A model generated the notes under the pieces. It did no database searches. It worked only from the letters and a program-made list of their open reading frames with translations, and had not been told where the DNA came from. Shown in pieces: positions 217 through 55,615 of a stretch of DNA of 64,000 nt. Location of the stretch: positions 62,001 to 126,000 of the forward strand of contig NZ_WACR01000009.1 in assembly GCF_008806325.1 (NCBI RefSeq), written 5' to 3'. Source of the DNA: Salibacter halophilus (lineage in GTDB: Bacteria; Bacteroidota; Bacteroidia; Flavobacteriales_G; Salibacteraceae). Within the stretch, counting starts at the first letter, position 1. Each line of letters starts with the position of its first letter. The position numbers were made by a program, and so were the translations under genes.

Positions 217-312
217 GTTAAAGTTTTAATGCATTTTTGATTAGATATGACCCAACCAGTTTCAAGCAGTTGCGTCTATTAGGTGATTTTACCCTAATAA
301 TTAGTGTCAATT

Positions 313-3300
313 ATGAAAAAAATAATATTTCTATTTGTTTTAATGCTGTCAATGGCAGCTTTTAATAACAAAGCAAAAGCTTCTCACGCTGCTGGTGTTG
401 AGTTGAGTTTGTCTTGTCTAGGAAATAATCAATACCTGGTTACTTTAAGTTTTTTTAGGGACTGTAGTGGTATTTCTGCTCCTGCAGGTCCGGAACAAGT
501 CGATTTTACCAGCCCCTGCGGTAATACTACCGTGAATATACCGCTTGACACCATGTATGAAGTTTCTCAAATTTGTGATTTACAGATTGGTAATACGACC
601 TGTCAAAATGGTAGTTTGCCTGGTATTGAGAGATATATTTATGAGGGGGTTGTAACTTTATCTCCATGTCCGGCCGGTAACTGGGTTGGTTCATGGTCTT
701 TAAATGCCAGAAACCCAAACAACAATACAAATGGTGGTAATCTTTACATAGAAACTACAATCAATACTAATGTTACACCATGTAACAATTTGCCGGTATT
801 TACGGCAGATCCAATACCGTATTATTGTGCCGGCTCACCAGTTAACTTTAACCCGGGAGTAGTTGAACCGGATGGTGATTCATTAGATTTCTATTTTGGA
901 ATGCCGTTAACAAATGCAAATCAACCTATTGTCTATACGGGTGGATATAGTAACACAAACCCATTTCCTGTTCCTGTGACTATAAATAATCAAACAGGGC
1001 AAATATCTTTCAATCCTACAGCAGCAATGACATCTTTTCCAAATCCTTTTTGGGTGTTGAAATTCTGTGTGGATGAATACCGAAATGGAGTTTTAATTGG
1101 GACTACTTGTAGGGATATTCAATTTAGTATTTTACCGGCTGCTAACTGTGGTAACACACCTCCCTATATGTTAGACCCGGGGATTCAAAACTTTAGCGGT
1201 TCAGGAACTCAAATTGATTCGAATTCTATTCAGGCTTGTTATGGTCAGTCTTTCTCGTTTGATATTCAATTTGCTGATTCATTATTGCCGACTCAATTGT
1301 TTGGAGATTCTGTAGAGTTGACAACTAACGCGTTATCTGTTTTCCCTAACCTGACAATTACAACTAGTACTAATGCACCCGTTGGTGATACTGCTACAAT
1401 GCATTTTTCTGGTACAGTTCCGGTAGGAGCACCACCATTCAATGTATTTACAATCTTTGCCTCAGATAATGCCTGCCCGTTATCGGGTATTGCAAGTGTT
1501 CAGTTCGATATAACCGCCATACCATCAACGAATACAGGTCCTGATGATACTTTATGTGGTTTCCTAGATACTCTATTCCTCAATCCAATTGGAGGTGATA
1601 CTTTTACTTGGGAGGTTCTTTCAGGGGACTCGATGATCATGGGACAAAACTTTAGTGATACCACGGGCACTGATGGTGGTAATGTATGGGTAAAACCCAC
1701 AAATCAAACAACTTATAAAGTTACTTCCAACTTACCGGGCTCGTGTCAAAATACCGACACGATCACTGTTAGTGTTCGCCAAATTGACTTAGGTCCAGAT
1801 ACTATGCTTTGTAGAGGCGATACTTTAACACTCGGTGCAACAGGGACAGTCCCGTGTGGATCAGGAACACCAGTTTACAGTTGGTCTCCTACAACAGGGC
1901 TAGATAACCCATCATCGCCCAATCCGGTTCTGACCGTGGGGAGTTCACAACAAACCACAACTTATCAATTGATTTACGATGATGGTTGTGGATGTCAAAC
2001 TGTCGATAGTATGACTGTTGAAGTTAGTGATGTAGAAGTGCAGAGTTTAGCATGGAATAATCCTAACTGTTTAGATTCTACAGCTTCTATAACCTTGACA
2101 GAGCAAGGTGGGTTCCCACCTTATCAATACAGCCTTGACTCACTGACGGGTTATCAGGCGAGCAATCAGTTTAATAATTTACCTATTGGCTATTACAATG
2201 GTTATGTTCAGGATTCACTTGGATGTATTTCTCCAGCGGCCTACGATACAATTATCGATCCGGGAGTGGAGTTAGACAGTGCTAAATTGAGTGATGTTAC
2301 ATGCTTTGGAGCCCAAAATGGTGAAATTGAGGTTTTCGCTTCAAGTGGTGCTACACCATATACATACAGTATTGATAGTGGAATGACTTTTCAGGGTAGT
2401 CAAACTTTCCCTGGACTTAACCCCGATACATTTAATATTGTAATAGAAGATAATAATGGGTGTAGAACGCTTTCACAAGAAGCAATTATTGAAACTAACA
2501 GTGAACTATTTGTCGATTCTATTATCAGTGAAAACCTGAACTGTTTTGAAGATTACACAGGTTCTATTGATGTGTACGCTCATGGCGGAACACCCCCTCT
2601 TGAGTACAGTATTGATAATGGAAACACATGGTCTCAATTTGGGTCTTTTGACTCATTATTAGCCGACAATTATGTTGTAATTGTTCGTGACTCCTTCCAG
2701 TGTGAAACAGCACCACAGGTTATCAATCTAACGCAGCCTAGCAAAATTGATATCAACTTAACTGTTGAAAACGATACTTGCTTCCAGGCATGTGGCGGAC
2801 AGGCATCTGCCACTGTGAGTGGAGGTGTTATGCCTTATGCTTTTGATTGGAATGGCTATGGATCTAACAACTCAACTTCATGGAATTTATGTTCAGGTCC
2901 TGCTTATGTCCTGGAGATAACAGATGATAATAACTGCGTAGCAGATACAACATTCACAATCTCTGAACCTGACGAGTTGGTTATTGATTCAATAGCTGAA
3001 CGAGACCTTGAGTGTAATGGAAATAACAATGGTCAGATCCAAATCTTTGCTAGCGGAGGTAGAGTGCCATATTATTACAGTATTGACGGAGGTCAAAGCT
3101 TCCAGTCGAGCAATAACTTTACAGGATTAACAGCCGGCACTTACAATGTTGTGGTTCGTGACTCAGCTTACAGATGTCAGGTGCTCGGTGAAGCTAGCCT
3201 GATTGAACCATCACCGGTTGAAGTTAGCGTTCCATTTAACGAAAAAACAATTTGTGTAAGTAACTGTATAAACCTATCTGCTTTTGCGAGCGGAGGTACA

Positions 3301-4497
3301 GGAAGTCAGTACAACTTTGTTTGGACAGGAGCTAGCAGCAATGGTCAGGTTGTGACTGTTTGCCCGGGTCAGGATACAAGCTATGCTGTCTATGCTGAAG
3401 ATGAAAACGGTTGTGCTTCTAATGTTGAAGTGTTTGAAATCTCAATTCGTGATTCACTTGATGTAGAACTCGAAGATGAAGTAAATATTTGCCCTGGTGA
3501 AGAAGCATTCATCAGTGCTATAGGCAGTGGTGGATCAGGTAGTGGTTATCGTTACACATGGTCTCCAATTACCGGATTATCAGGAGGAGTTGGTCAAAGT
3601 GTAACAGCTTCACCACAAAGTTCAACAACTTATACAGTAGAACTTACTGATGATTGCGGTTCACCTTCAGTTACTGATACTATTAGAGTTAGCGTTAATC
3701 CACTTCCTCAAGTTGATTGGTCTGCAAGAGACACACTGGAAGGTTGTGCACCTTACACGAATCTGCTGACAAACCAAACACAAAATGCTCAATCAGTAAG
3801 CTGGAAAATTGGTGAAGAAATTACAGCATCAGGCTTTACTGCTGAGATTATCGACTTACCAGCAGGACAGTATGATGTAACAATGGAAGTAACAACAACT
3901 GATGGTTGTGTTGATTCTAAAACCATCAAGAATTACTTCAATGTTATTCAAAACCCGATTGCTGAATTTAGCATGACTCCAAACCCAACAACAATCTTTA
4001 ACACGATGATTCAATTCCAGGATCAATCGACTGACGATGTTGTTGAGTGGGACTGGGATTTTGCAAGCCTGGGTAGCTCTCAGGAACAAAGTCCTGTATT
4101 CCAAATGCCGGTTGAAGGTGACTCTGGTACCTATCCGATTACTCTAACTGTAGAAAATGCAGAAGGATGTACTGATGAAGTTACCAACACCTTGAGAGTA
4201 GGTGCTGAGTTTAACCTTTACGTTCCCAACTCATTTACACCAAATGGAGATGGTCTTAATGACATTTTCAAAGCCGAAGCTATTGGAGTAAATCCTGACC
4301 GCTTTAGCATGATCATCTTCAACAGATGGGGTGAGGTTGTATTCCAAAGCAATACACTCGATATTGGCTGGAGAGGAACTGTAAATGGTGGAAACCCGGC
4401 TCCGGCAGGAAGTTATGTATGGAAAATTACAGCCAACGACATAACCGATGAACGCGATTTTAAAGAACAAACCGGTTATATCAACTTGATTCGATAA
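313..4497 (+). CDS. SprB-repeat T9SS type B cargo protein, probable surface adhesin
   Basis: A 1394-residue secreted protein. The ATG at 313 is preferred over an in-frame GTG at 304 because it begins a clean signal peptide (MKKIIFLFVLMLSMAAF, cleavage near residue 23 after KAKA). An N-terminal Cys-rich domain (about 25-400) contains FFRDCSG and resembles the start of the giant protein at 44034. Ig-like segments follow, then five to six SprB modules of about 79 residues (about 572-1000; ..C....NG.I.V.ASGG..PY.YSID), a PKD-like domain (about 1214-1295, with WDWDF) and a type B sorting domain (about 1299-1394, starting VPNSFTPNGDGLND). SprB modules are known from the motile adhesin of Flavobacterium gliding. 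A cell-surface adhesin role is inferred; no enzyme domain is visible. The gene carries two copies of the interspersed GGTCAGADCC word (1926, 3031). Confidence 0.85.
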   Translation: MKKIIFLFVLMLSMAAFNNKAKASHAAGVELSLSCLGNNQYLVTLSFFRDCSGISAPAGPEQVDFTSPCGNTTVNIPLDTMYEVSQICDLQIGNTTCQNGSLPGIERYIYEGVVTLSPCPAGNWVGSWSLNARNPNNNTNGGNLYIETTINTNVTPCNNLPVFTADPIPYYCAGSPVNFNPGVVEPDGDSLDFYFGMPLTNANQPIVYTGGYSNTNPFPVPVTINNQTGQISFNPTAAMTSFPNPFWVLKFCVDEYRNGVLIGTTCRDIQFSILPAANCGNTPPYMLDPGIQNFSGSGTQIDSNSIQACYGQSFSFDIQFADSLLPTQLFGDSVELTTNALSVFPNLTITTSTNAPVGDTATMHFSGTVPVGAPPFNVFTIFASDNACPLSGIASVQFDITAIPSTNTGPDDTLCGFLDTLFLNPIGGDTFTWEVLSGDSMIMGQNFSDTTGTDGGNVWVKPTNQTTYKVTSNLPGSCQNTDTITVSVRQIDLGPDTMLCRGDTLTLGATGTVPCGSGTPVYSWSPTTGLDNPSSPNPVLTVGSSQQTTTYQLIYDDGCGCQTVDSMTVEVSDVEVQSLAWNNPNCLDSTASITLTEQGGFPPYQYSLDSLTGYQASNQFNNLPIGYYNGYVQDSLGCISPAAYDTIIDPGVELDSAKLSDVTCFGAQNGEIEVFASSGATPYTYSIDSGMTFQGSQTFPGLNPDTFNIVIEDNNGCRTLSQEAIIETNSELFVDSIISENLNCFEDYTGSIDVYAHGGTPPLEYSIDNGNTWSQFGSFDSLLADNYVVIVRDSFQCETAPQVINLTQPSKIDINLTVENDTCFQACGGQASATVSGGVMPYAFDWNGYGSNNSTSWNLCSGPAYVLEITDDNNCVADTTFTISEPDELVIDSIAERDLECNGNNNGQIQIFASGGRVPYYYSIDGGQSFQSSNNFTGLTAGTYNVVVRDSAYRCQVLGEASLIEPSPVEVSVPFNEKTICVSNCINLSAFASGGTGSQYNFVWTGASSNGQVVTVCPGQDTSYAVYAEDENGCASNVEVFEISIRDSLDVELEDEVNICPGEEAFISAIGSGGSGSGYRYTWSPITGLSGGVGQSVTASPQSSTTYTVELTDDCGSPSVTDTIRVSVNPLPQVDWSARDTLEGCAPYTNLLTNQTQNAQSVSWKIGEEITASGFTAEIIDLPAGQYDVTMEVTTTDGCVDSKTIKNYFNVIQNPIAEFSMTPNPTTIFNTMIQFQDQSTDDVVEWDWDFASLGSSQEQSPVFQMPVEGDSGTYPITLTVENAEGCTDEVTNTLRVGAEFNLYVPNSFTPNGDGLNDIFKAEAIGVNPDRFSMIIFNRWGEVVFQSNTLDIGWRGTVNGGNPAPAGSYVWKITANDITDERDFKEQTGYINLIR

Positions 4498-41713: not shown

Positions 41714-43786
41714 GTGAAGCAGCCGAAAAGACATTTAGTGACAGCAGCATTACCTTATGCGAACGGACCGTTACACATCGGTCACATTGCGGGAGCTTAC
41801 TTGCCCTCAGATATTTACGTGCGTTATCTCAAAGCGCGCAGGCAGGATGTTGTGTTTGTGTGCGGTAGTGATGAACACGGGGCTGCTATCACAATGCGGG
41901 CGCTCAAAGAAGATATTACTCCGCAGGAAATTGTCGATAAATACCACAAGATCAATAAAAAGGCGTTTGCGGATTTCGGGATCGACTTCGATATTTACGA
42001 CCGCACCTCAACCGAGCTTCACACCGAAACAGCCCAGCAGTTTTTCCTCGACCTCGAGAAAAAAGGTTCGTTTGAAGTTGAAACGCGGGAACAGTTTTAC
42101 GATGAGGAACACAAACAGTTTTTAGCCGATCGTTACATAACAGGTGAATGTCCGAAATGCGGGCACAGCGGGGCTTATGGTGACCAGTGCGAAAAATGCG
42201 GCTCCAGCTTAAATGCCAATGACCTCATCAACCCAAAATCGGTTTTGTCCGGGAAAACTCCGGTTCTGAAAGAGACCAAACACTGGTACCTGCCCATGCA
42301 GCGCCACGAAAACTGGCTCAAAGACTGGATCACGGAAGGTACGCTCGAAGGCAAAGAACACCACGACCCCAAAAAATGGCGCAAGCAGGTAATCGGGCAG
42401 TGTATGAGCTGGATCGATGGCGGACTCGCACCGCGCGCTATGACACGTGATCTTACGTGGGGAGTCCCTGTTCCGGTCGAGGGCGAGGAAGGAAAAGTGC
42501 TTTACGTGTGGCTCGATGCACCCATCGGGTACATCACGGCAACGAAACAATGGGCTGCTGAAAACGGCTCTGACTGGGAAAAATACTGGAAAGATGATGA
42601 GTCGGCCATCACGCATTTCATCGCGAAGGACAACATCGTTTTTCACTGCATCATTTTCCCGATTTTGCTCAAAGAGCACGGGAAGTACAACTTGCCCGTC
42701 AATGTACCGGCCAACGAGTTCTTGAATCTCGAAGGTGACAAGATCAGTACCTCGCGTGAGTGGGCCGTTTGGCTGCACGAATACCTGGAAGATTTCCCGG
42801 GTAAAAACGATGAATTGCGTTACGTGCTCACCAGCATCTCGCCCGAGGCGAAGGACAGCGAATTCACTTGGAAGGATTACCAAAACCGCGTGAACAACGA
42901 GCTCGTAGCTATTTTGGGGAATTTTGTGAACCGCGCCCTGGTGCTCACGCATAAATATTTTGACGGTCAGATCCCTGAGGCGGGCGAACTCCACGACATC
43001 GACCGGGAGTTGCACGATTCCGTTAGTCAAATCCCGACAATCGTAGCAGGGAAAATCGAGAACCATCGTTACAGGGAAGCGCTGCAGGAAGCGATGAAGC
43101 TCGCTCGCTACGGGAACAAATACCTGGCCGATACAGAGCCGTGGAAAGTATTCAAAACCGATGAAGATCGCGTAAAGACAATTCTGTTCAATGCCTTGCA
43201 GGTTGTAGCGAAGTTGGGAATCGTCCTCGATCCGTTTATGCCGCAAACAGCAGAGAAGTTACGTCAATATACCAACCTGGCTAAAAAAGACTGGGAACTG
43301 ACTGAGAATCCCGAATTGCTCGTTTCGGGTCAGCCCATTGAAAAGCCCGAGTTGCTCTTCCAAAAAGTAGAGGATGAGGTTATCGAAAAACAGGTAGAAA
43401 AGTTAAAAGCCAAAAAAGCAGAAAAAGAAAAACAGGAAGCAATGGAGCAGTCAGAACCGATCGAGTTTGAGGATTTCCAAAAAATGGATTTGCGAATCGT
43501 GGAAATTATCGATGCCGAACCGATACCAAAAGCTGATAAGTTGTTGAAAATCCAAATATCACTCGGTTCTGAAGAGCGCACCGTAGTGAGCGGGATAGCA
43601 AAGCATTACAGGTCTGAGGAGATAATTGGCCAACGAGTGCTCTATTTGGCAAATTTGAAGCCGCGCAAAATTTTTGGGGTAAAATCACAGGGTATGTTAC
43701 TGATGGCTCAAAACGATGAAACGGGCGTTTTATCTACGATTCAGCCCTCAAGGGATGAAGTAAAAGGCGGAGACAAAGTCAGTTAA
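41714..43786 (+). CDS. metG: Methionine-tRNA ligase
   Basis: 690 residues; starts at GTG 41714, the only start before the HIGH-type motif. Charges tRNA-Met in the cytoplasm. Seen: TAALPYANGPLHIGHIAGAYLPSDIYVRY (class I HIGH motif as HIGH), the zinc knuckle CPKCGHSGAYGDQCEKCG, WLDAPIGYI, the KMSKS-region variant GDKISTSREWAVW, an anticodon-binding helical domain and a C-terminal EMAPII-like tRNA-binding domain (about 575-690, FEDFQKMDLRIVEII ... FGVKSQGMLLMA). Higher GC and strong codon bias are consistent with a well-expressed gene. Confidence 0.97.
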   Translation: MKQPKRHLVTAALPYANGPLHIGHIAGAYLPSDIYVRYLKARRQDVVFVCGSDEHGAAITMRALKEDITPQEIVDKYHKINKKAFADFGIDFDIYDRTSTELHTETAQQFFLDLEKKGSFEVETREQFYDEEHKQFLADRYITGECPKCGHSGAYGDQCEKCGSSLNANDLINPKSVLSGKTPVLKETKHWYLPMQRHENWLKDWITEGTLEGKEHHDPKKWRKQVIGQCMSWIDGGLAPRAMTRDLTWGVPVPVEGEEGKVLYVWLDAPIGYITATKQWAAENGSDWEKYWKDDESAITHFIAKDNIVFHCIIFPILLKEHGKYNLPVNVPANEFLNLEGDKISTSREWAVWLHEYLEDFPGKNDELRYVLTSISPEAKDSEFTWKDYQNRVNNELVAILGNFVNRALVLTHKYFDGQIPEAGELHDIDRELHDSVSQIPTIVAGKIENHRYREALQEAMKLARYGNKYLADTEPWKVFKTDEDRVKTILFNALQVVAKLGIVLDPFMPQTAEKLRQYTNLAKKDWELTENPELLVSGQPIEKPELLFQKVEDEVIEKQVEKLKAKKAEKEKQEAMEQSEPIEFEDFQKMDLRIVEIIDAEPIPKADKLLKIQISLGSEERTVVSGIAKHYRSEEIIGQRVLYLANLKPRKIFGVKSQGMLLMAQNDETGVLSTIQPSRDEVKGGDKVS

Positions 43787-43810
43787 TAGCAAATGAAAAG
43801 GCTATCAGCT

Positions 43811-43841
43811 TTGAAGTGAGCGGCTTAATTTTGTACTTTAG
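43811..43841 (+). promoter_or_regulatory. Promoter of the giant SprB-like gene
   Basis: TTG at 43811-43813, 20 nt, TACTTTAG at 43834-43841 (one mismatch to TANNTTTG). A second box TAATTTTG overlaps at 43826-43833. Transcription would start near 43848, leaving a leader of about 185 nt. Confidence 0.5.
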
Positions 43842-43847
43842 GGACGA

Positions 43848-44033
43848 ATTTATACCGGTGGCAGTTTTTAAAGTCACATGAAAATGCGGCTTCCAAACGA
43901 AAACCGGCATTGCAACTTAAAGGAAATGCCCTGGCGGCATGGAATAGTTAAAATGTTTTACTAGCAACGAACCGTAGGCAAAATCCGTCTAAAAGGGGTG
44001 ACGGATTTACACCTAACTCTTAAAAATCAACCA
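43848..44033 (+). promoter_or_regulatory. Long structured 5' leader of the giant adhesin gene
   Basis: About 185 nt between the probable start site and the ATG at 44034, unusually long for this genome. It holds at least two stem-loops: GGCATT / AATGCC (43906-43930) and a perfect nine-bp hairpin AAATCCGTC / GACGGATTT (43981-44008) just ahead of the start codon. I cannot match it to a known riboswitch class; it is a candidate cis-regulatory RNA. Confidence 0.4.
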
Positions 44034-47000
44034 ATGAGAAGAATACTACTTCTAATAACGATACTGTTTTCTACACTATTTTTCAGCGAAAAGGCTTTTG
44101 GGACGCATATTGCCGGAGGCGATATTAATGTTCAGCATTTAAGCGGCAATCAGTTTGAAGTTAATATTAATCTCTATGGGGATTGTAGTGGTAACTTTGG
44201 ATTACTAAATAGCGATGTTAATTTAGGGGTGTTGGGTTCGTGTTTTACTGATTTTCGTCAATTCATTCCCCTCTTAAATCCTGGGGGAACAGAAGTGAGT
44301 CAGGTATGTCCTAGTGCTATTAGTAATACCACTTGTAATAGTGGGTCTCTTCCTGGATTGTTGAGGTTTAGTTATTCGGGGACAGTTACTTTACCTTCTA
44401 CAAACTGTGTTGCTACTTTTAGACTTGCAGACTTTGCAAGAAACTCAACACAAAACATAGTCAATTCTAATGGTGAGTCTTTTTATATAGAGACTAAATT
44501 GGATCTCTCAACATCTAGCACAAACTCTTCACCTCAATTTGCATTTGATCCAATAGCTTATGCGATTCAAAATCAACCTATAACGTTTAACTTTGGTGCG
44601 ACAGATGCGGATGGGGATAGTTTGAAGTATTCTTTAGTTGGGGCTAGAGGTTTTAGCACTAATTCTCCAAATGCCCCATTAACTAATATTATTACTAATT
44701 CACCAACTACTTTATCATACCAAACAGGCTACAGTGCAACATCACCGATTCAAGGTATTACTCTTAATCAGAACACAGGTTCAGCATCAGCCCTTCCGAC
44801 AGTGCAAGGAAATTTTATTGTTGTTGCCAAAGTTGAAGAGTTTGATAATGGAGTCTTGATCGGAGAAATGATTCGCGATATTCAAATTGTTGTGGTTTCA
44901 GATCCCAACAATATTCCTACAGCTCCTTCAACATTTACAAACTTTTCAGGTTGGGCTGATTCTGTTGATCAATCAACGATCAGCGCATATCCCGGAATGG
45001 ATTTTTGTATCGATATTACCTTCTCTGATAATGATGCAGCAGATTCACTTTCTTTGGTGACTAATTTAAGTTCAGTTTTACCCGGAGCCAGTTTGAGTTT
45101 GACAGGATCTAACCCACTTACGGCAAATGTTTGTTGGACAGCTACAGCAGGGATGCCTGTGAGCAATACGGTAGTTTTTAATGTATCAGATAGTGCTTGT
45201 CCTGTCTCAGGAGTTAATTCTTATTCATTAAATGTTTTAGTCCCACCTTGTAATGGGCTTGTGGGTAGAGTGCGAACGCAAGATGCATCCTGTGCAGGGG
45301 CTTGTGACGGCTGGGCAAAAGTGAAAATGTTCTGCGGGTCAGGTAATTACACTTATAATTGGGTCAATACAAATGTAGGGCCCATACCACCAAATGATAG
45401 TGTGACCTTGTGTGCTAGTTCAACGCAGTATAACCTTGTTGTTACAGATAATTCAACCAGTGAAGTTTACAGTAAGGCGGTTTCGATTCAAGAGCCTCCC
45501 ACAATTAACATTTCAAGCTCTACTAATGCAGCGAGTTGTGGGGGAGCTTGTGATGGAAGTATTTCCACGATAGTGACAGGTGGTACCCCACCTTTTAATT
45601 ACAATTGGGGCGATATCTCTGCAAATACAGCATTTCGTGCAGGTTTGTGTGCAGGGACTTACGACTTAACAGTTACAGACCAAAAAGGATGTGAAAAAAT
45701 TGAAAGTTATACAATTGTTTCACCACCGTCAATTAATTCATCCGTGGTTTCAGTGACTGACCCATTATGCGCTGGCGGTAGCACTGGAGAGGTAGTTGTA
45801 GAGTCTACTGTTGGTTGCGGTAATGTGCCCTCAGCAACTTGTCCTGGATTGGATACTGCTCAGGTAGGCACAGGGAATATCGTTTTAAGTGGAAATAACT
45901 ACCCTGCAATTTACGGAGCTTCTAATAAAGCGGCAAAACATCAAATGGTTTTTACAGCTTCTGAGTTACAGGCTCAGGGAGTTCAAGCAGGACCTATTGA
46001 AGAGATTGCTTTTTTTGTTGGTAGTGGAAATTTAAAAGGTTTTGCATCATCGTTTGATAATTTTGAAATTAAAATGGGATGTTCAAGTGCTTCAGATTTA
46101 TCTGGAGGATTTGAGGCAGGTTTAGGTCCCGTGTTTAGCGTTCAGAGTACGATGGCTATGGTAGGATGGAATAACTACCAATTTCCTTCACCTTTTTACT
46201 GGGATGGACAATCAAATGTAGTTGTTGAGGTATGCTTTACTAATAGTGGATCAGGAGTTTCAGGGGGTAACTCTCATGAAAATCTTTCGAATACCGGTCA
46301 GCCAATGACGCGTTATTACGCTGCTAATAATGATTCGGTTTGCGTTTCACCGGGTGCTGGTGCTACTTCAACACTTCGACCAAACGTGCGTTTCAAGCAT
46401 TGTGCAGATCAATTAGACTACTCATGGTCACCGGCTCCTGCAGCTGGTCAAAATAACGATACGGTAACAGGACTACCTGCTGGAACTTACACGGTAACCG
46501 TGACGAACAGTGCTAACTGTTCAGATACTTTAACGGTAAATGTTACTGATCCACCTCCATTTACGACTTCAATCAGCCTCGATCAGGCGGTTTCCTGTCC
46601 CGGTGTTTGTGATGCACAGGTAACGGCTACCTCAACGGGAGGAGCTGCTCCAATAACGTATTCGTGGGATAACGGATTGCCAAACGGAGCTAATCAAACA
46701 GGGCTCTGCGGGGCAACAACATATAACGTAACAGCAACTGATGATAACAACTGTACTTCAACTGCTCAAATCACGATTACTGAACCAACAGCGATTAACC
46801 TCACAGCATCAGTAGATGTACCGGTTTCCTGTAATGGTGTTTGTGATGCGGAGATTTCAGCATCTGCCTCTGGAGGTGGAGGCGGTTTTACTTACGCCTG
46901 GAGTGGCGGTTTAGGCAGTGGTCAAACCCAAACGGGCGTTTGTGGTAACCAAACCTACACCGTAACCGTAACCGATGCGAACGGTTGTACCGAAACAGCA

Positions 47001-50000
47001 CAGGTGACGGTCAACGAACCGGCTGTTCTAACAGCATCGATTACAACTGACAGTCCTGTTTCCTGTAACGGAGTGTGTGATGGGGAAGTAACAGCATCCG
47101 GCTCAGGCGGAACATCGCCTTACACATTTGCATGGGATGGCGGCCTCGGAAACGGAGCTTCTCAAACGACACTTTGCGGTGGACAAACATATAATGTAAC
47201 CGTCACTGACTCGAGAGGATGTACAGCAACTGACCAGGTGACACTTGCTGATCCACTGGCAATCACAACGAGCTCAACAGTAAACAGTGATGCGAGCTGT
47301 AATGGAGCTTGCGATGGTGATGCACAGGTTTCAGCATCAGGCGGAGCAGGCGGTTTCACTTATGACTGGAACGGAACAATCACCGGTCAAAACCCAACGA
47401 ATTTATGCGCGGGCACTTACGATGTAACTGTAACAGATGCCAACGGATGTACGGCAATCGAGCAGGTTGTAATTGCTGAGCCGGCACCGGTAAACGTGAC
47501 GATCAACCTCGATCAGGCGGTATCCTGTAACGGAGTTTGTGATGGGGAAGTAACGGCATCCGCAACAGGCGGTAATGGCGGCTTCACTTACACTTGGGAC
47601 AATAGCTTGCCTAACGGAGCAAACCAAACAGGGCTTTGCGGAGCAACTACATATAATGTAACCGCAACTGATGCCAACGGTTGTACGGGCACGGCACAGA
47701 TTACAATTTCAGAACCATCATCGATCAACCTTACAGCAACAGTAGATGTGCAGGTTTCGTGTAACGGAGTTTGCGATGGAGAAATCTCAGCATCGGCAAC
47801 AGGTGGAGCTGGTGGCTTCTCTTATGCGTGGAGTGGTGGTCTCGGTAATGGTCAAACCCAAACAGGCGTTTGCGGTAACCAAACCTACACCGTAACTGCA
47901 ACCGATGCGAACGGTTGTACGGAGACTGCTCAGGTAACAGTGAGTGAGCCATCGGCAGTTTCAGTGTCGATCACAACAGATAGTCCTGTTTCATGTAACG
48001 GAGTTTGTGACGGGGCTGTGACAGCATCCGGCTCAGGCGGAACATCGCCTTACACATTTGCATGGGATGGCGGCCTCGGAAACGGAGCTTCTCAAACGAC
48101 ACTTTGCGGTGGCCAAACATATAATGTAACCATCACCGATGCGAGCGGATGTACAGCAACTGACCAGGTGACGTTGACAGAGCCGTCTGCAATCACAACG
48201 AGCTCAACAGTAAATAGCGATGCGAGCTGTAACGGAGCTTGCGATGGTGATGCACAGGTTTCAGCATCAGGCGGAGCAGGCGGTTTCACTTATGACTGGA
48301 ACGGAACAATAACCGGTCAAAACCCAACGAATTTATGCGCGGGCACTTACGATGTAACTGTAACAGATGCCAACGGATGTACAACAACTGAGCAGGTGAT
48401 TATCGGAGAGCCAAATCCGGTTGTGGCAAGCATCACGATTGATCAGCCGGTTACTTGCGGTGGAATTTGTGATGGTCAAATCACGGCTTCAGCAACTGGT
48501 GGAGATGGCGGACCATTCACATTTACGTGGTTAAATGGATTACCGGCCGGAGCTACTCAGTCTAATCTTTGCGGTGACAGTACTTATACAGTGATCGCTA
48601 CAGACGGGAACGGATGTGCCGATACTACAAGTATTACACTCACCGATCCATCAACAATCAGCGTAACGGCAACAGTAGATGTGCAGGTTTCGTGTAACGG
48701 AGTTTGCGATGGAGAAATCTCAGCATCGGCAACAGGTGGAGCAGGCGGCTTTACTTACACATGGAGTGGTGGTCTCGGTAATGGTCAGACCCAAACAGGC
48801 GTTTGTGGAAATCAAACATACACCGTAACTGCAACCGATGCGAATGGCTGTAGTGAAACTGCCCAGGTAACAGTTAACGAACCGGCTGCTTTAACAGCAT
48901 CCATTACAACTGATAGTCCTGTTTCGTGTAATGGAGTATGTGACGGAGCAGTAACAGCATCCGGTTCAGGCGGAACTGCACCTTACACATTTACATGGGA
49001 TGGCGGTCTTGGAAACGGAGCTTCTCAAACTGCACTTTGCGGAGGTCAAACATACACCGTAACCATCACCGATGATAACGGTTGTACAGCAACTGATCAG
49101 GTAACGCTCGCTGATCCTGCGGTTCTGACCGCAACGTCAACTGTAAACAGTGACGCTTCATGTAACGGAGTTTGTGACGGTGATGCTGAAGTAACACCAT
49201 CAGGCGGAACTGCACCTTATACTTATGACTGGAATGGAACAATTACTGGTCAAAATCCAACAAATTTATGTGCGGGCACTTATGATGTTACCGTAACAGA
49301 CGACAACGGTTGTACAGTAATTGAACAGGTGATAATCGGAGAACCAAGTGCGGTTGTAGCGAGTATCACGATCGATCAACCGGTTTCTTGTAGCGGTGTT
49401 TGTGATGCTCAAATTACAGCATCAGCAACAGGTGGTGATGGCGGACCGTTCACATTTACATGGTTAAATGGATTACCGGCCGGAGCAACTCAATCGAATC
49501 TTTGCGGAGATAGCACTTACACGGTTATTGCGACAGATGGTAGCGGCTGTACAGATACGGCTGACATAACATTAACTGATCCGGCAACGATTTCACTTAC
49601 AACTACAGTAATTAATGATGCAAGTTGTAACAGTAGCTGCGATGGAAGTGGTTTTGTAACTGCTTCTGGTGGTACAGCACCTTATACTTACAACTGGTCA
49701 AACTCAACTTCAAACGATACAATAGATAGTATTTGCGCTGGGACATATTTAGTAACTGTAACAGATGCAGGAGGATGCTCTGAAGTAGACTCGGTGATCA
49801 TTTCAGAACCGACACCACTCAACTTTAGCGTCTCTATTCAAACTCCGGTTACCTGTGCTCCATTCTGTAATGGTGAAGCAGCAGCTACTGCGCCATCAGG
49901 TGGTACACCACCTTATTCATTGACATGGTCAAATGGAGATAGTGGTTTAGTAGCCGATTCAGTTTGCCCGGGATTATTGCAGGCATTCCTTGTTGATGCT

Positions 50001-53000
50001 AACGGATGTTCTGATACGTTAGATCTCAACCTTGCCAGTCCGGCTGCATTCTCAGTTTCGATTACATCATCTACAGATGTAACTTGCCCGGGCGGAAATA
50101 CAGGTAGTGCATCAGCATCAGTTAATAACCCTACTCCAGATATGATCTACAACTGGGCTCCGGCTCCGGGTGCTGGTCAGGGTACGTTAAATGCTTCACA
50201 ACTTTCAGCCGGAACTTACAGCATCACCGTTACTGATACAGTGACGAACTGTACTGATGTGGCTCAGGTGACAATCAACGAACCTGCACCGATCAATATC
50301 AACTTTACAACTACAATTCCTATTTCATGTAATGGAGTTTGTGATGGTGAACTCGATGTTTCTGCAACTGGCGGAAATGGCGGATTTACTTTCAGCTGGA
50401 GTACATCGGGAACGGGAACAACTCAAAGTAACCTTTGTGCGGGGATGTATTATGTGACTGCTACAGATGATTCTGGTTGTGTGGCAGTCGATTCATTCGA
50501 TCTTTCAGAACCGGCACCGCTTGCTCTTGCCACTTCATCAAATGATGAATCATGCGCAGGTGCTTGTGATGCTACTGCAACGGTTACTCCGAGTGGAGGT
50601 ACAGCTCCTTACACTTACCAATGGCCAAGTGGTGGAACAGACTCAACTGATACGGCATTGTGCGTTGGTCCGGTAACAGTAACAGTTACTGATGACAATG
50701 GATGTACAAACACAGCAACGATAAACGTAAACGGTCCGCAACCATTGGTTCTGACCGATCAAATAATTTCACAGCCGAGCTGTAATGGTGGTTGTGATGG
50801 ACAGGCAAGTGTATCTGTAACGGGCGGTACTTCACCTTACTCATTCAGTTGGTCTGGTGGTGGATCCGGTACGAGTCAGTCTAACTTATGTGCCGGAACA
50901 ACAACTGTAACTGTAACTGATAACAACGGCTGTACAGACACTGTGAATATTCAGCTTCAGGCTCCAAATGGAATCAACGCTACAATTGTTGAAAACCAAA
51001 GTATATCGTGTAACGGATCATGTGATGGTGAATTGGAAGTGAATATTACTCAAGGTTTAGCCCCATTTGTATTCACATGGTCTAACAGTGGTTCAACGCA
51101 GGTTCAATCAGGATTGTGTGCAGGTACTTATTCTGTGACGATTGAAGATGCTAACAATTGTATTTCGACATTGAGCTATAACCTAACTGAGCCGGCTGCA
51201 ATTGTAATGAATCCATCAACTACAGATCCTAACTGCGGTGCTTGTGATGGTGTTATTGACGCGAGTGTAATAACAAATGGTGTTGCGCCATTTACTTATT
51301 CATGGTCAGGAATTACACCAAACCCGGGTAACGTTTCAATTGTAAACAACCTTTGTCCGGGAGCTTATAATGTAACAGTTACTGACGCTGGCGGATGTGC
51401 TGATACAGCTCTTATCACGCTCAGCAGTGTTGGCGCACCTGGCGGAACAATAACAGGAATTGATCCAACTTGCTTTGACTCTTGTAACGGTTCAGTAGAA
51501 GTAACACCGGTAGGTGGTACGCTACCTTACGATTACCAGTGGTCAACTTCAAATCCTAATGATACGACTGAAATAATCACAGGTGTTTGTGATGGTATTT
51601 ACACGGTAACTGTAACGGATGCAACGGGTTGTCAGCTTGTGCTTGCTGATACACTCGATAATCCGGCTCCACTTTCAGCGTCATCATCAACGACTGATGT
51701 GACTTGTAACGGAGCTTGTGATGGTGAAATAGTAGTTACGCCAACAAGCGGAAGCGGACCTTATACATTTAATTGGAGTGATAGTGGCACTGATTCGGTC
51801 AGAACCGGACTTTGTGCTGATACATACTTCTTAACTATGACAGATGGTTCAGGTTGTGTTCTGATCGATACATTTACGATTACTGAACCGACAGCCATTA
51901 CAAGTTCTTTTGTCGATACAACAGATGCTACTTGTTTCAATAGCTGTGATGGAATGGCTGAAGTATCAGCATCAGGCGGTAACGGATCGTTTACTTACAA
52001 CTGGTCATCAGGTGCTTCAGGTAGCATTGCAAACAACTTGTGTGTTGGAGAAAACTACGTGACTATCACTGATGGTAATGGTTGTTCAATAATCGACACG
52101 ATTGACATCGGTGCACCACCGGCAATTGTTATCGATACTGCAATTATTGAAGATGCTTCATGTTCTGCTGATACAGGAAGTATTGAAGTTGTAGCATCAG
52201 GCGGACAGGGAAGCTTGACTTACTCCTGGAACGGAGGCGCCTTAAGTGGTAATCCGATCACAGGTTTGTCGGGTGGAGTTTACAATCTTACTATTACTGA
52301 TACTACCGGATGTAGCGTTACAGCTTCTTACACTGTAGGCAACATAGGAGCTCCTGATGTAACAATGTTGTCTCAGGATATCAGCTGTCACGGAGCATGT
52401 GACGGAACAGTTACAGCTGCAGTTGTGAATGGTTCCGGCTATTCTTACAACTGGAGTAATGGATCGAGCGGAGCTACGCAATCTGGTCTTTGTCCGGGGA
52501 CTTATACGGTAACAGTTGATGATGGATCAGGATGCTTAGCGATTGAATCTGTGACATTGACTGAACCTGCTGAAATTTTCATCGACAGTATCGTGACAAC
52601 ACCAACAGCTTGCGGTGACTCAAACGGAGTTATTGAAGTATTTGCTCACGGTGGTGAAGGAACTCTTACTTACCTTATTAATGGAGTAGATACTGTAAAC
52701 CCAATAATCAATGTAGCGGGTGGAACTTATACAGTAGAGGTAGCCGACACAACTGGATGCTCTGTATCACAAATTGTTCCGGTTCCAAACACCGGAAGCT
52801 TTGGAATTACAGTTTCAAAAGTTGATGTGACTTGCTTTGATGATTGTAATGGTCAGGCGTTTGTGAACATCGGTCCACCACCGGGAACAGGGCCTTACAG
52901 TATTCAGTGGACAACTGGAGTAAATGATACACTCAATACTTTGACTGATCTGTGTCCCGGAACTTACGGTGTTCAGGTGACTGATGAAACAGGTGGTTGT

Positions 53001-54716
53001 GTTGCTGTGGATAGCGTAACAATTGAAGCTCCTGCTGAGATTGAACTCGACAATGTTATTACGGCTACACCTGATTGTGGTCAGAACAACGGCTCTATTG
53101 AAGTAATTGCAAGTGGCGGTATTGGATCGTTGAATTACCAGTGGAATGGTGGTCCGGCTGATAGTGTTTACAACAATATTTCGGCTGGCTTATACGAGGT
53201 CACTGTTTCAGATGCAAATGGATGTACGCTCACGGAGATCATTCCATTGAGCAACCCAACTTCACCTTCAATCAGTGTAACTACTCAGGATGCTTCATGT
53301 AATGGAGATTGTAACGGTAGTGCTGAGGTTGCTGTTGCCGGATCTGACTATGAAGTGATGTGGAGCAACAATGAAACAACCGAGATGATTGCGGGACTTT
53401 GCCCGGGCAATTACGGGGTTGTAGTTACTGATACGACTAACGGATGTATCGCTGCTGATACAGGTTCTGTAGGTACAAAAGGAAATCTCGATATCGAGCT
53501 CGATATTCTCAACAATAGCAACTGTAATGCACTTACGGTATGTGAAGGTGAGATTGAAGCAATCGTGACAGGAGGTGATATGCCAATATCTTACAACTGG
53601 TCCTCTGCCGGAGCAGGTGATACAAATGTATTAGCATCACTTTGCGCAGGAACTTATACAGTTACAGCGACCGGAAACAACGGTTGTGAAGCAATTGCTG
53701 TTGGGCAGGTTGTGGATGTGCCGGGCCTCGATGTAACAGTTGACACTGTAATTGACGCTCAGTGCTGGAACAGTAATAATGGTTCGGTTGATATTTCGAT
53801 ATCAGGAGGAAATCCTGATTATACAATTAACTGGAATGGTCCTGGTTATTCTGGAGATTCAGCCGATATTGACAACTTGCTTCCTGGTGAGTATACATTA
53901 AGAGTTGCTGATGAAGGCGACTGCGTTGTATTCGATACAATTCAGGTTGGAACGCAAACGAGACTTTCGGTTTCTGCACTTGACACAACTCTTTGTGGAT
54001 TGGGAGACACAGTTGAAGTTTACGCTGATGCATCCAGTGATTATCCGATTACTTACGAATGGCAAAACAATGCCGGTCAAACAATTGATACTGGCAGATC
54101 AACAACTGTTATTCACGAAGAACGAGTTGAGAGAAGACTAGTCTTTGTTTCAAGTAATGGTTGCGTTAGAGTTGATACTGCTATAGTCAGATCACGAGGC
54201 GTACCTGTTGCCGATGCCGGAAATGATACGACTATTGTTGCCGGAGCGAGAATCAGACTGGGAGGTAATCCAACTTCAAACGAAGCAGGAAGTACCTACG
54301 AATGGGGTCCTGATCAGGCAGACTTGAGTGGTTTCGATATTGCGAATCCATATGTTCGTCCTGAGCAAACATCGACTTACAGCTTAAAAGTGACGAATAT
54401 TTACGGCTGTGAAACATGGGACTTCATTAGAGTGACAGTAACAAACGCATTTGATTTCCCTGATGGCTTCTCGCCAAACGGAGATGGTAAAAATGATGTT
54501 TGGGAACTCGACTTCTTAAGTGAATACAGAGATTGCAACGTGAAAATATTCAACCGCTGGGGTCAGGTGGTGTTTGAAAGTGAAGGATATGATGAACCGT
54601 GGGATGGAACTTACAACGGTAATGATTTACCAGTAGGGTCTTATTACTACGTGATCGATCTTGGAACTGAGGACTTCACTGAACCAATTACCGGACCTGT
54701 AACCATAATGAGATAA
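44034..54716 (+). CDS. Giant SprB-like surface adhesin, T9SS type B cargo (3560 residues)
   Basis: Start at ATG 44034 (the frame opens at a GTG at 43998, but the signal peptide MRRILLLITILFSTLFFSEKAFG begins here). An N-terminal Cys-rich domain (about 25-400; NLYGDCSGNFG) is homologous to that of the protein at 313. Then roughly 35 SprB modules of about 75-80 residues (C.G.CDG...V.ASGG..PY.Y.W..G......LCAGTY.VTVTD..GC), interrupted once by a domain of about 200 residues (594-793). The C-terminus has the type B sorting domain (about 3471-3560, FDFPDGFSPNGDGKND). SprB of Flavobacterium johnsoniae is the motile gliding adhesin, and its gene is likewise followed by sprF; the same order here suggests a gliding or attachment adhesin. 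Residues 842-1860 form a 930-bp higher-order repeat. Confidence 0.9.
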   Translation: MRRILLLITILFSTLFFSEKAFGTHIAGGDINVQHLSGNQFEVNINLYGDCSGNFGLLNSDVNLGVLGSCFTDFRQFIPLLNPGGTEVSQVCPSAISNTTCNSGSLPGLLRFSYSGTVTLPSTNCVATFRLADFARNSTQNIVNSNGESFYIETKLDLSTSSTNSSPQFAFDPIAYAIQNQPITFNFGATDADGDSLKYSLVGARGFSTNSPNAPLTNIITNSPTTLSYQTGYSATSPIQGITLNQNTGSASALPTVQGNFIVVAKVEEFDNGVLIGEMIRDIQIVVVSDPNNIPTAPSTFTNFSGWADSVDQSTISAYPGMDFCIDITFSDNDAADSLSLVTNLSSVLPGASLSLTGSNPLTANVCWTATAGMPVSNTVVFNVSDSACPVSGVNSYSLNVLVPPCNGLVGRVRTQDASCAGACDGWAKVKMFCGSGNYTYNWVNTNVGPIPPNDSVTLCASSTQYNLVVTDNSTSEVYSKAVSIQEPPTINISSSTNAASCGGACDGSISTIVTGGTPPFNYNWGDISANTAFRAGLCAGTYDLTVTDQKGCEKIESYTIVSPPSINSSVVSVTDPLCAGGSTGEVVVESTVGCGNVPSATCPGLDTAQVGTGNIVLSGNNYPAIYGASNKAAKHQMVFTASELQAQGVQAGPIEEIAFFVGSGNLKGFASSFDNFEIKMGCSSASDLSGGFEAGLGPVFSVQSTMAMVGWNNYQFPSPFYWDGQSNVVVEVCFTNSGSGVSGGNSHENLSNTGQPMTRYYAANNDSVCVSPGAGATSTLRPNVRFKHCADQLDYSWSPAPAAGQNNDTVTGLPAGTYTVTVTNSANCSDTLTVNVTDPPPFTTSISLDQAVSCPGVCDAQVTATSTGGAAPITYSWDNGLPNGANQTGLCGATTYNVTATDDNNCTSTAQITITEPTAINLTASVDVPVSCNGVCDAEISASASGGGGGFTYAWSGGLGSGQTQTGVCGNQTYTVTVTDANGCTETAQVTVNEPAVLTASITTDSPVSCNGVCDGEVTASGSGGTSPYTFAWDGGLGNGASQTTLCGGQTYNVTVTDSRGCTATDQVTLADPLAITTSSTVNSDASCNGACDGDAQVSASGGAGGFTYDWNGTITGQNPTNLCAGTYDVTVTDANGCTAIEQVVIAEPAPVNVTINLDQAVSCNGVCDGEVTASATGGNGGFTYTWDNSLPNGANQTGLCGATTYNVTATDANGCTGTAQITISEPSSINLTATVDVQVSCNGVCDGEISASATGGAGGFSYAWSGGLGNGQTQTGVCGNQTYTVTATDANGCTETAQVTVSEPSAVSVSITTDSPVSCNGVCDGAVTASGSGGTSPYTFAWDGGLGNGASQTTLCGGQTYNVTITDASGCTATDQVTLTEPSAITTSSTVNSDASCNGACDGDAQVSASGGAGGFTYDWNGTITGQNPTNLCAGTYDVTVTDANGCTTTEQVIIGEPNPVVASITIDQPVTCGGICDGQITASATGGDGGPFTFTWLNGLPAGATQSNLCGDSTYTVIATDGNGCADTTSITLTDPSTISVTATVDVQVSCNGVCDGEISASATGGAGGFTYTWSGGLGNGQTQTGVCGNQTYTVTATDANGCSETAQVTVNEPAALTASITTDSPVSCNGVCDGAVTASGSGGTAPYTFTWDGGLGNGASQTALCGGQTYTVTITDDNGCTATDQVTLADPAVLTATSTVNSDASCNGVCDGDAEVTPSGGTAPYTYDWNGTITGQNPTNLCAGTYDVTVTDDNGCTVIEQVIIGEPSAVVASITIDQPVSCSGVCDAQITASATGGDGGPFTFTWLNGLPAGATQSNLCGDSTYTVIATDGSGCTDTADITLTDPATISLTTTVINDASCNSSCDGSGFVTASGGTAPYTYNWSNSTSNDTIDSICAGTYLVTVTDAGGCSEVDSVIISEPTPLNFSVSIQTPVTCAPFCNGEAAATAPSGGTPPYSLTWSNGDSGLVADSVCPGLLQAFLVDANGCSDTLDLNLASPAAFSVSITSSTDVTCPGGNTGSASASVNNPTPDMIYNWAPAPGAGQGTLNASQLSAGTYSITVTDTVTNCTDVAQVTINEPAPININFTTTIPISCNGVCDGELDVSATGGNGGFTFSWSTSGTGTTQSNLCAGMYYVTATDDSGCVAVDSFDLSEPAPLALATSSNDESCAGACDATATVTPSGGTAPYTYQWPSGGTDSTDTALCVGPVTVTVTDDNGCTNTATINVNGPQPLVLTDQIISQPSCNGGCDGQASVSVTGGTSPYSFSWSGGGSGTSQSNLCAGTTTVTVTDNNGCTDTVNIQLQAPNGINATIVENQSISCNGSCDGELEVNITQGLAPFVFTWSNSGSTQVQSGLCAGTYSVTIEDANNCISTLSYNLTEPAAIVMNPSTTDPNCGACDGVIDASVITNGVAPFTYSWSGITPNPGNVSIVNNLCPGAYNVTVTDAGGCADTALITLSSVGAPGGTITGIDPTCFDSCNGSVEVTPVGGTLPYDYQWSTSNPNDTTEIITGVCDGIYTVTVTDATGCQLVLADTLDNPAPLSASSSTTDVTCNGACDGEIVVTPTSGSGPYTFNWSDSGTDSVRTGLCADTYFLTMTDGSGCVLIDTFTITEPTAITSSFVDTTDATCFNSCDGMAEVSASGGNGSFTYNWSSGASGSIANNLCVGENYVTITDGNGCSIIDTIDIGAPPAIVIDTAIIEDASCSADTGSIEVVASGGQGSLTYSWNGGALSGNPITGLSGGVYNLTITDTTGCSVTASYTVGNIGAPDVTMLSQDISCHGACDGTVTAAVVNGSGYSYNWSNGSSGATQSGLCPGTYTVTVDDGSGCLAIESVTLTEPAEIFIDSIVTTPTACGDSNGVIEVFAHGGEGTLTYLINGVDTVNPIINVAGGTYTVEVADTTGCSVSQIVPVPNTGSFGITVSKVDVTCFDDCNGQAFVNIGPPPGTGPYSIQWTTGVNDTLNTLTDLCPGTYGVQVTDETGGCVAVDSVTIEAPAEIELDNVITATPDCGQNNGSIEVIASGGIGSLNYQWNGGPADSVYNNISAGLYEVTVSDANGCTLTEIIPLSNPTSPSISVTTQDASCNGDCNGSAEVAVAGSDYEVMWSNNETTEMIAGLCPGNYGVVVTDTTNGCIAADTGSVGTKGNLDIELDILNNSNCNALTVCEGEIEAIVTGGDMPISYNWSSAGAGDTNVLASLCAGTYTVTATGNNGCEAIAVGQVVDVPGLDVTVDTVIDAQCWNSNNGSVDISISGGNPDYTINWNGPGYSGDSADIDNLLPGEYTLRVADEGDCVVFDTIQVGTQTRLSVSALDTTLCGLGDTVEVYADASSDYPITYEWQNNAGQTIDTGRSTTVIHEERVERRLVFVSSNGCVRVDTAIVRSRGVPVADAGNDTTIVAGARIRLGGNPTSNEAGSTYEWGPDQADLSGFDIANPYVRPEQTSTYSLKVTNIYGCETWDFIRVTVTNAFDFPDGFSPNGDGKNDVWELDFLSEYRDCNVKIFNRWGQVVFESEGYDEPWDGTYNGNDLPVGSYYYVIDLGTEDFTEPITGPVTIMR
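46561..49610 (+). repeat. Higher-order tandem repeat, period about 930 bp, 3.3 copies
   Basis: Four different SprB modules form a 310-residue block that recurs: blocks begin near 46565 (SLDQAVSC), 47495 (NLDQAVSC), 48430 (TIDQPVTC) and 49360 (TIDQPVSC). The fourth module of each block (NSDASCNGACDGDAQVSASG) recurs at about 47280, 48210 and 49140. Long stretches are identical or nearly so at the DNA level between blocks one and two. Confidence 0.85.
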
Positions 54717-54721
54717 TCGCT

Positions 54722-55615
54722 ATGAAAAGATATATATTGACATTAGGTGTGATTTTTGGGGCTCTGACCGTAACGGCTCAGCAGCTCCCTCAATTCACCC
54801 AGTATTTCCTGAATGATTTCATAATCAACCCGGGAGTAACTGGTACAAAAGATGCCTGGATAGGGCAGTCTAATAATCGCTATCAATGGGTAGGGATACA
54901 GGATGCTCCACGCACTTACATTTTGAGTGCAAACGGTCCTTTTAGTGATTACAATATGGGATTGGGAGGTTATTTTTTCTCTGATATTGCTGGTCACACA
55001 CGAAGGACTGGTTTTGCCGGTTCTTATGCTTATCACCTCAAAGTTGCTGATGATATTAAGCTTGGAATGGGGCTGAATTTTGGAGCTACTAGATGGCTTA
55101 TCGATGGATCGGCAATTCAAACCAAGGACACTGAAGACCCGGCATTCTCGAGAGGTACTCAATCAACATGGGTTCCCGATGCAGGTGTAGGTTTTCACCT
55201 TTACGCCAAAGAATTTTGGGTAGGCATTAGTGCTCCGCAAATAATAGGTAATAAATTGAAGTTCTTTGATGATTACACTCAAACACAGGCACGCCTTGCA
55301 AGACACTACTTTTTCAATGCTGGTTACAATTACCAAATGCTCGATGAGTTAGTGCTGCAACCAAGTGTTTTCGTCAAGTATATCGATCCACTTCCTGTTC
55401 AATTCGATGCAACTTTAAGGGTAATCTACGATGATTTCATCTGGGCCGGTTTTTCTTACAGGATGGATGACGCTGTGGGTGTAATGTTAGGAGTAGATTT
55501 TCAAAACAATCTGCGATTTGGGTATTCTTATGATATTCCAACATCAGACATCAACCCATACACAACCGGCTCTCATGAGCTAATGCTGGGAATAAGATTT
55601 AAGGAGAGAGATTGA
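54722..55615 (+). CDS. PorP/SprF family type IX secretion system membrane protein
   Basis: 297 residues. Signal peptide MKRYILTLGVIFGALTVTA then QQLPQFTQYFLNDFIINPGVTGTKDAW, the PorP/SprF start signature. The rest is an outer-membrane barrel with FGYSYDIPTSDINPYTTGSHELMLGIRF at the C-terminus, also family-typical. SprF-like proteins serve a particular type B cargo, helping its export or anchoring; the gene begins 5 bp after the giant adhesin gene, so the two form a cargo-partner pair. A GGCTCTGACC word overlaps the signal peptide codons (54760). Confidence 0.93.
   Translation: MKRYILTLGVIFGALTVTAQQLPQFTQYFLNDFIINPGVTGTKDAWIGQSNNRYQWVGIQDAPRTYILSANGPFSDYNMGLGGYFFSDIAGHTRRTGFAGSYAYHLKVADDIKLGMGLNFGATRWLIDGSAIQTKDTEDPAFSRGTQSTWVPDAGVGFHLYAKEFWVGISAPQIIGNKLKFFDDYTQTQARLARHYFFNAGYNYQMLDELVLQPSVFVKYIDPLPVQFDATLRVIYDDFIWAGFSYRMDDAVGVMLGVDFQNNLRFGYSYDIPTSDINPYTTGSHELMLGIRFKERD

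Follow-up and report, generated by a model that had tools for sequence, protein, structure and literature searches.

A putative ECF-type promoter upstream of a giant SprB-repeat adhesin gene in Salibacter halophilus

Within the 64,000 nt of Salibacter halophilus DNA analysed here (the window), the region upstream of a giant adhesin gene most likely harbours a promoter of the switch type, read by an alternative (ECF) sigma factor, as judged from its sequence, and the adhesin RNA probably starts just upstream of the gene, at positions 43995-44000. The proposed promoter is a dyad, GCAAC-N17-CGTCT, spanning 43964-43990, and the start zone was placed using the spacing that usually separates the -10 element of ECF promoters from the transcription start. 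A previous sequence-only reading had interpreted the region as a long structured RNA leader, in which a conserved-looking island between two hairpins was taken as part of an RNA element controlling expression of the adhesin. This island, GCAACGAACCGTAGGC, is located at 43964-43979, 11 nt further downstream than the 43953-43968 given for it, and corresponds to the -35 half of the dyad; its conservation and its link to expression control hold, as DNA forming half of an ECF-type promoter and not as RNA. Judged on the sequences, assignment of the site to the ECF promoter class appears well supported, and its link to the clade A sigma factor described below appears less so.

The gene itself had been read correctly, as it encodes 3560 residues from the ATG at 44034. 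The protein contains 27 SprB-repeat stretches and carries a CHU_C / T9SS type B sorting domain at its C-terminus. With a PorP/SprF-family gene immediately 3', the locus brings together the repeats, the sorting domain and the neighbouring PorP/SprF partner that characterize an SprB-type T9SS adhesin operon (Table 1). Residues 1-420 had matches in 59 of the 60 genomes searched, own genome counted, and homologs of this segment, defined without an SprB-repeat criterion, represent the adhesin genes of the relatives; upstream distances in these relatives are approximate, since gene starts were chosen by script. An adhesin homolog was present immediately 3' of metG in 6/30 metG loci (own genome, G003, G006, G009, G013 and G016). 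This order of metG and adhesin homolog (41714-55615 in the window, L032-L036 elsewhere) is a conserved, if odd, arrangement, seen in six genomes from five genera.

Table 1. Coordinates of annotated and predicted features (window positions unless a contig is named)
Feature	Position	Strand	Remark
Second site of the same kind, CCAAC-N16-CGTCT	252..277	+	Best matrix match in the window, before second SprB adhesin
Second SprB-repeat T9SS adhesin, 3' of site 252-277	304..4497	+	Likely ATG at 313
metG, neighbour 5' of the adhesin	41714..43786	+	ORF end 43786
Housekeeping-like promoter, TTG-N20-TACTTTAG	43811..43841	+	One mismatch to TAnnTTTG; possible second promoter
Hairpin, stem 6 bp, loop 13 nt (first of the sequence-only reading)	43906..43930	+	Outside the part alignable with relatives
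Proposed -35 element, GCAAC	43964..43968	+	Next base G rather than the usual C
Perfect nine-bp inverted repeat, loop 10 nt	43981..44008	.	Arms 43981-43989/44000-44008; left arm overlaps proposed -10 element
Proposed -10 element, CGTCT	43986..43990	+	17 nt after -35 element; matrix rank 2/127,936 positions
Predicted transcription start zone	43995..44000	+	From usual ECF -10 spacing
Predicted short leader of ECF-driven mRNA	43998..44033	+	34-39 nt depending on start
Giant adhesin gene	44034..54716	+	3560 aa, ATG at 44034
PorP/SprF-family outer-membrane partner	54722..55615	+	Immediately 3' of adhesin
Candidate ECF sigma factor, 187 aa	G000:C1:266693-267253	minus	Sigma70_r2 and Sigma70_r4_2

The dyad was first spotted by eye in side-by-side upstream stretches and was tested afterwards. 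The pattern GCARC-N15..17-CGTYW was present within 200 nt upstream of 15/78 adhesin-homolog loci on the sense strand and of 0/78 on the antisense strand, with a mean of 0.06 and a maximum of 1 in 50 rounds of dinucleotide shuffling; eight of the 15 positive loci had themselves suggested the pattern, and the remaining 70 loci gave seven. As a plain pattern, GCAACN{15,17}CGTYT had 20 matches in the own genome, mostly inside genes, and was dropped as uninformative genome-wide, since the backward control gave 41.

A position-specific matrix was trained on 27 sigma-gene promoters from other genomes, with no adhesins and with the own genome left out; its GCAAC and CGT letters were fixed by construction, because the training sites had been selected with GCAAC-N14..18-CGT, and spacers of 15-17 were set from the adhesin sites ahead of the scan. 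On both strands of the window (127,936 positions), the highest score was at 252 on the plus strand (12.9 bits), upstream of the second SprB adhesin at a distance of 61 nt from its likely ATG, and the next highest was the proposed promoter at 43964 on the plus strand (12.1 bits). The rank of the latter depended on the spacers allowed, being 2 with 15-17, 125 with 15-16 only and 3 with 14-19. The shared -35 and -10 elements stand at near-fixed spacing before several target genes, with the window site deviating at one -35 base and in its spacer: it reads GCAACG with a spacer of 17, and all 27 training sites read GCAACC with a spacer of 15 or 16. Three of the four own-genome adhesin upstream regions examined scored >12 bits (the window site, L272, and L263, which is the site at 252), and no good site was seen at the own-genome paralog L270 or at the metG-linked relative L035 in G009 (the same place as L075).

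With a cut of 9 bits, chosen once the window had been scanned (14/40 at a cut of 8 bits, 13/40 at 10), the matrix matched the sense strand in 13/40 further adhesin upstream regions, the antisense strand in 0/40, and 3/630 background blocks. Twelve more adhesin upstream regions gave 6/12 on the sense strand, and the 78 adhesin-homolog loci gave 19/78, with no antisense match in either set. The regions below 9 bits numbered 27/40, 6/12 and 59/78, respectively, and the three sets partly overlap (L107=L244, L119=L257 and L086=L061 are the same places). The motif and its sense-strand enrichment before adhesin homologs are visible in the sequences, as is its conservation before the sigma gene described next, which suggests that ECF-type promoters are common to a fair share of the related adhesins and to the gene of one sigma factor.

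Ten Sigma70_r2 matches were present in the own genome, and the best candidate among these proteins is a 187-aa ECF sigma factor (Table 1), which has regions 2 and 4 only and matches TIGR02937 above its cut-off, with no named ECF family above its own cut-off among the 25 matches listed. Its gene has the motif before its own start, as GCAACC-N15-CGTCA at a distance of 39 nt, the arrangement expected for autoregulation. When 94 ECF proteins (the best match from each of 30 genomes, 60 chosen paralogs and four own-genome genes) were arranged in a tree, the candidate fell in a clade of 37 rows that included the own genome (clade A, support 99/95, from a bootstrap that had not settled; row L203 is on a very long branch). 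The pattern GCAAC-N15/16-CGT was found in the 350 nt preceding the ECF gene on the sense strand of 37/37 clade A rows and the antisense strand of 0/37; outside clade A it was found in 2/57 rows (antisense 0), L284 and L288, both of the window's genus and on long branches. Each of the ECF clades (L284-L343; L204, L206) has its own version of the dyad in front of its sigma genes (GCAACC/CGTC, GCAACTTTT/CATCT and CCAACC/CGT), and these versions, different but related, may represent a radiation of self-promoter codes. The gene next to the candidate sigma gene has a product with a likely membrane segment (by eye), and our designation of this product as an anti-sigma factor is a guess, since one survey counted Class I anti-sigma domains next to just 6% of the ECF genes of Bacteroidetes (PMC7406223).

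A sequence profile, R1, was run against 12 other genomes and matched 19 places at E<=0.05. Eleven of these precede the sigma gene, most of them being training sites, two precede adhesin homologs, four precede genes for secreted-looking proteins (by eye), and two (L359 and L360) have no nearby forward gene; G015 had no match. In the own genome at E<=10 the profile matched three places, the best of them 53 nt ahead of a gene whose product looks secreted and the next best ahead of the sigma gene; it missed the site at 43964 and had no match within the window. The strong profile matches before genes of secreted-looking proteins, at L349, L356, L357, L361 and L281, are located at distances of 45-82 nt, and the same two-gene arrangement is common to L356 and L357, which are from two genomes.

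The sequence-only reading had attributed control of this costly protein to RNA, and a structured leader (riboswitch-like or protein-bound) that governs adhesin translation now appears highly improbable. Both hairpins exist exactly where they had been noted, and the perfect nine-bp stem, ending 25 nt 5' of the ATG, would fit such an element: a perfect stem of at least 9 bp occurred in 1.1% of 1000 shuffles, yet also in 23/687 overlapping 186-nt tiles of the same window. The fold of the leader is ordinary and shows little beyond chance as RNA structure, with a minimum free energy of -42.3 compared with a shuffle mean of -37.96 (z -1.04; 33/200 shuffles equally good). In Rfam scans of the region at gathering and E-value thresholds no family reached its threshold, and the two weak matches by E-value (3.4 and 6.4) are to eukaryotic families. 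Conservation of structure in homologous leaders, proposed as a check, was not seen: RNAalifold predicted 0 pairs on an alignment of the window with six relatives (five metG-linked and G015), which is weak at 35% mean identity, and the nine-bp repeat had no counterpart in the consensus fold of the seven leaders. Searching 60 genomes with the leader as DNA recovered, besides itself, short pieces only (best E 0.0016), and no relatives were found in viral contigs. The distance from promoter-like box to ATG varies among relatives, and the left arm of the stem overlaps the proposed -10 element; an ECF-driven mRNA would lack this arm, so that the hairpin could not form in it. A start within the leader had been named as evidence against an RNA element, and the predicted start does lie inside it. 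The nine-bp repeat straddles the proposed start, where operators are commonly placed, and could be DNA bound by a repressor over the -10 region and start; in the relative L037 a short palindrome was noticed by eye at the -10, but no consensus pair was detected in the seven leaders and such stems are not rare in the window, which makes an operator very unlikely. A 28-codon reading frame in the leader (43878-43964), whose last base is also the first of the -35 element, was set aside because it would lie upstream of the predicted start. The sequence ACCTA, seen by eye near the ATG in relatives, occurred in 3/78 loci at -35..-8 and in 1/78 in a shifted stretch, and was dropped.

Two further readings concern which polymerase forms read the region. 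A constitutive housekeeping-type promoter may give a transcript with the leader of about 185 nt while the ECF promoter adds an inducible, short-leader mRNA, an arrangement that would add to the ECF explanation, confine any RNA control to the long form, and is in our view quite possible, if a little short of probable. The -7-like box TACTTTAG (43834-43841, with TTG at 43811-43813) is 200 nt before the ATG, and a TAnnTTAG box was found in 5/6 relatives compared, namely the five metG-linked ones, at 62-120 nt from the ATG, and was absent in G015; the differing distance and the mismatch to TAnnTTTG count against the box, and its presence in the relatives counts for it. In the last 130 nt before the 78 adhesin homologs, TAnnTTTG, TAnnTTAG and TAnnTTCG occurred 23, 19 and 15 times (shuffle means 7.8, 5.1 and 2.6), and TAnnTTGG (2/78, mean 3.4) and TAnnTTAC (8/78, mean 5.6) were not enriched. 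The F. psychrophilum sprB gene is likewise described as read from two promoters (PMC9723704). Alternatively, one of the own genome's paralogous ECF sigma factors (for example L204 or L206), rather than the clade A sigma, may read the site. The paralog clades have diverged dyads of their own, that of clade D (GGCAACTTTT with mostly CATCT, 14/17 rows) always has a spacer of 17 like the window site, and several adhesin sites read (G/A)CAACT with a spacer of 17 (by eye). Against this, a matrix of 12 clade D promoters (mostly CATCT) ranked the window site 673rd, compared with 2nd for the clade A matrix, and clade B sites read CCAACC-N15..17-CGT (13/17 rows); a clade D sigma as reader of the site was set aside on this ranking, and use by a paralog is rather unlikely overall. 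As a separate observation, TAnnTTAG and TAnnTTCG are enriched at the 78 adhesin loci (L073-L150) about as strongly as TAnnTTTG, which suggests that the housekeeping -7 box is looser in these lineages.

We consider it likely that an ECF-sigma-type promoter starts transcription of the adhesin and porP/sprF genes at approximately 43995-44000; it may be switched via a sigma/anti-sigma pair. An envelope or surface signal would release the sigma factor from its anti-sigma factor, and RNA polymerase bearing this sigma factor would then transcribe the adhesin genes together with those of further secreted surface proteins and that of the sigma factor. At the window locus this would yield an adhesin-porP/sprF mRNA with a leader of 34-39 nt. 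The candidate sigma described above, with its own promoter of the same motif kind, is the best candidate for this role; its recognition of the site is our inference, and so are the position of the start, the function of the adjoining gene as an anti-sigma factor and the signal. A leader of 34-39 nt fits F. psychrophilum better than one of 185 nt, since the 5' UTRs given for that species have a median of 24 nt and a mean of 65 nt (PMC9723704).

The switch of a 3560-residue surface adhesin is worth knowing, as such a protein is costly to make. We tentatively propose that an ECF sigma factor found throughout the Flavobacteriales lineage may be dedicated to switching giant SprB-repeat adhesins along with further secreted proteins of the surface, with paralogs whose diverged self-dyads (GCAACC-CGTC, GCAACTTTT-CATC and CCAACC-CGT) might divide a cell's large adhesin repertoire into sets that can be switched independently. 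If the ECF explanation is right, a single autoregulated sigma factor would link several giant adhesins per cell, and the motif would permit regulons to be predicted in uncultured Flavobacteriales by sequence alone. The locus also calls for caution, as a long gap between a promoter-like box and the start codon in raw sequence can conceal an alternative promoter and not an RNA switch.

Autoregulated ECF regulons have AAC at the -35 and CGTC at the -10 element, the sigma gene under the same motif and an adjoining gene for a membrane-like protein. The proposed system resembles them in its AAC and CGTC elements, the self-motif on the sigma gene and the membrane-protein-like gene beside it, and differs from ECF regulons in general in that its targets include giant SprB-repeat adhesins and other secreted-looking proteins. 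Among the matches listed for the open-licence PMC literature, titles and starts of abstracts contained no description of the motif or of an ECF switch for SprB-like adhesins, nor of an ECF dyad that giant SprB-repeat adhesin genes have in common with the self-promoter of a single sigma clade. ECF promoter motifs are described as group-specific (PMC7406223). In P. gingivalis, the PorXY-SigP system is similar in that an ECF sigma factor controls type IX secretion, whereas the targets reported as tested there are genes of the secretion machine, and the motif proposed in that paper, compared by appearance, is short and A/T-rich, without GCAAC or CGTC (PMC4800418). The F. psychrophilum remFG-sprCDBF operon is also preceded by alternative promoters and includes sprF with the SprB adhesin, but the promoters presented for it are of the sigma-54 type and the TAnnTTGY box type (SM4 and SM5), without an ECF dyad (PMC9723704). 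The ECF-type motif SM6 of the same species is like the dyad described here in having a -10 box with CGT and in lying upstream of type IX secretion genes and of a sigma/anti-sigma pair of the ECF kind, a likeness judged from the -10 box and the target selection in Table 2 of that paper; it is unlike it in that this selection comprises parts of the T9SS machine and others, with sprB under SM4 and SM5 (PMC9723704). An ECF sigma factor is thus far known to control type IX secretion in P. gingivalis (SigP; PMC4800418), and for F. psychrophilum such control has been inferred with motif SM6 (PMC9723704).
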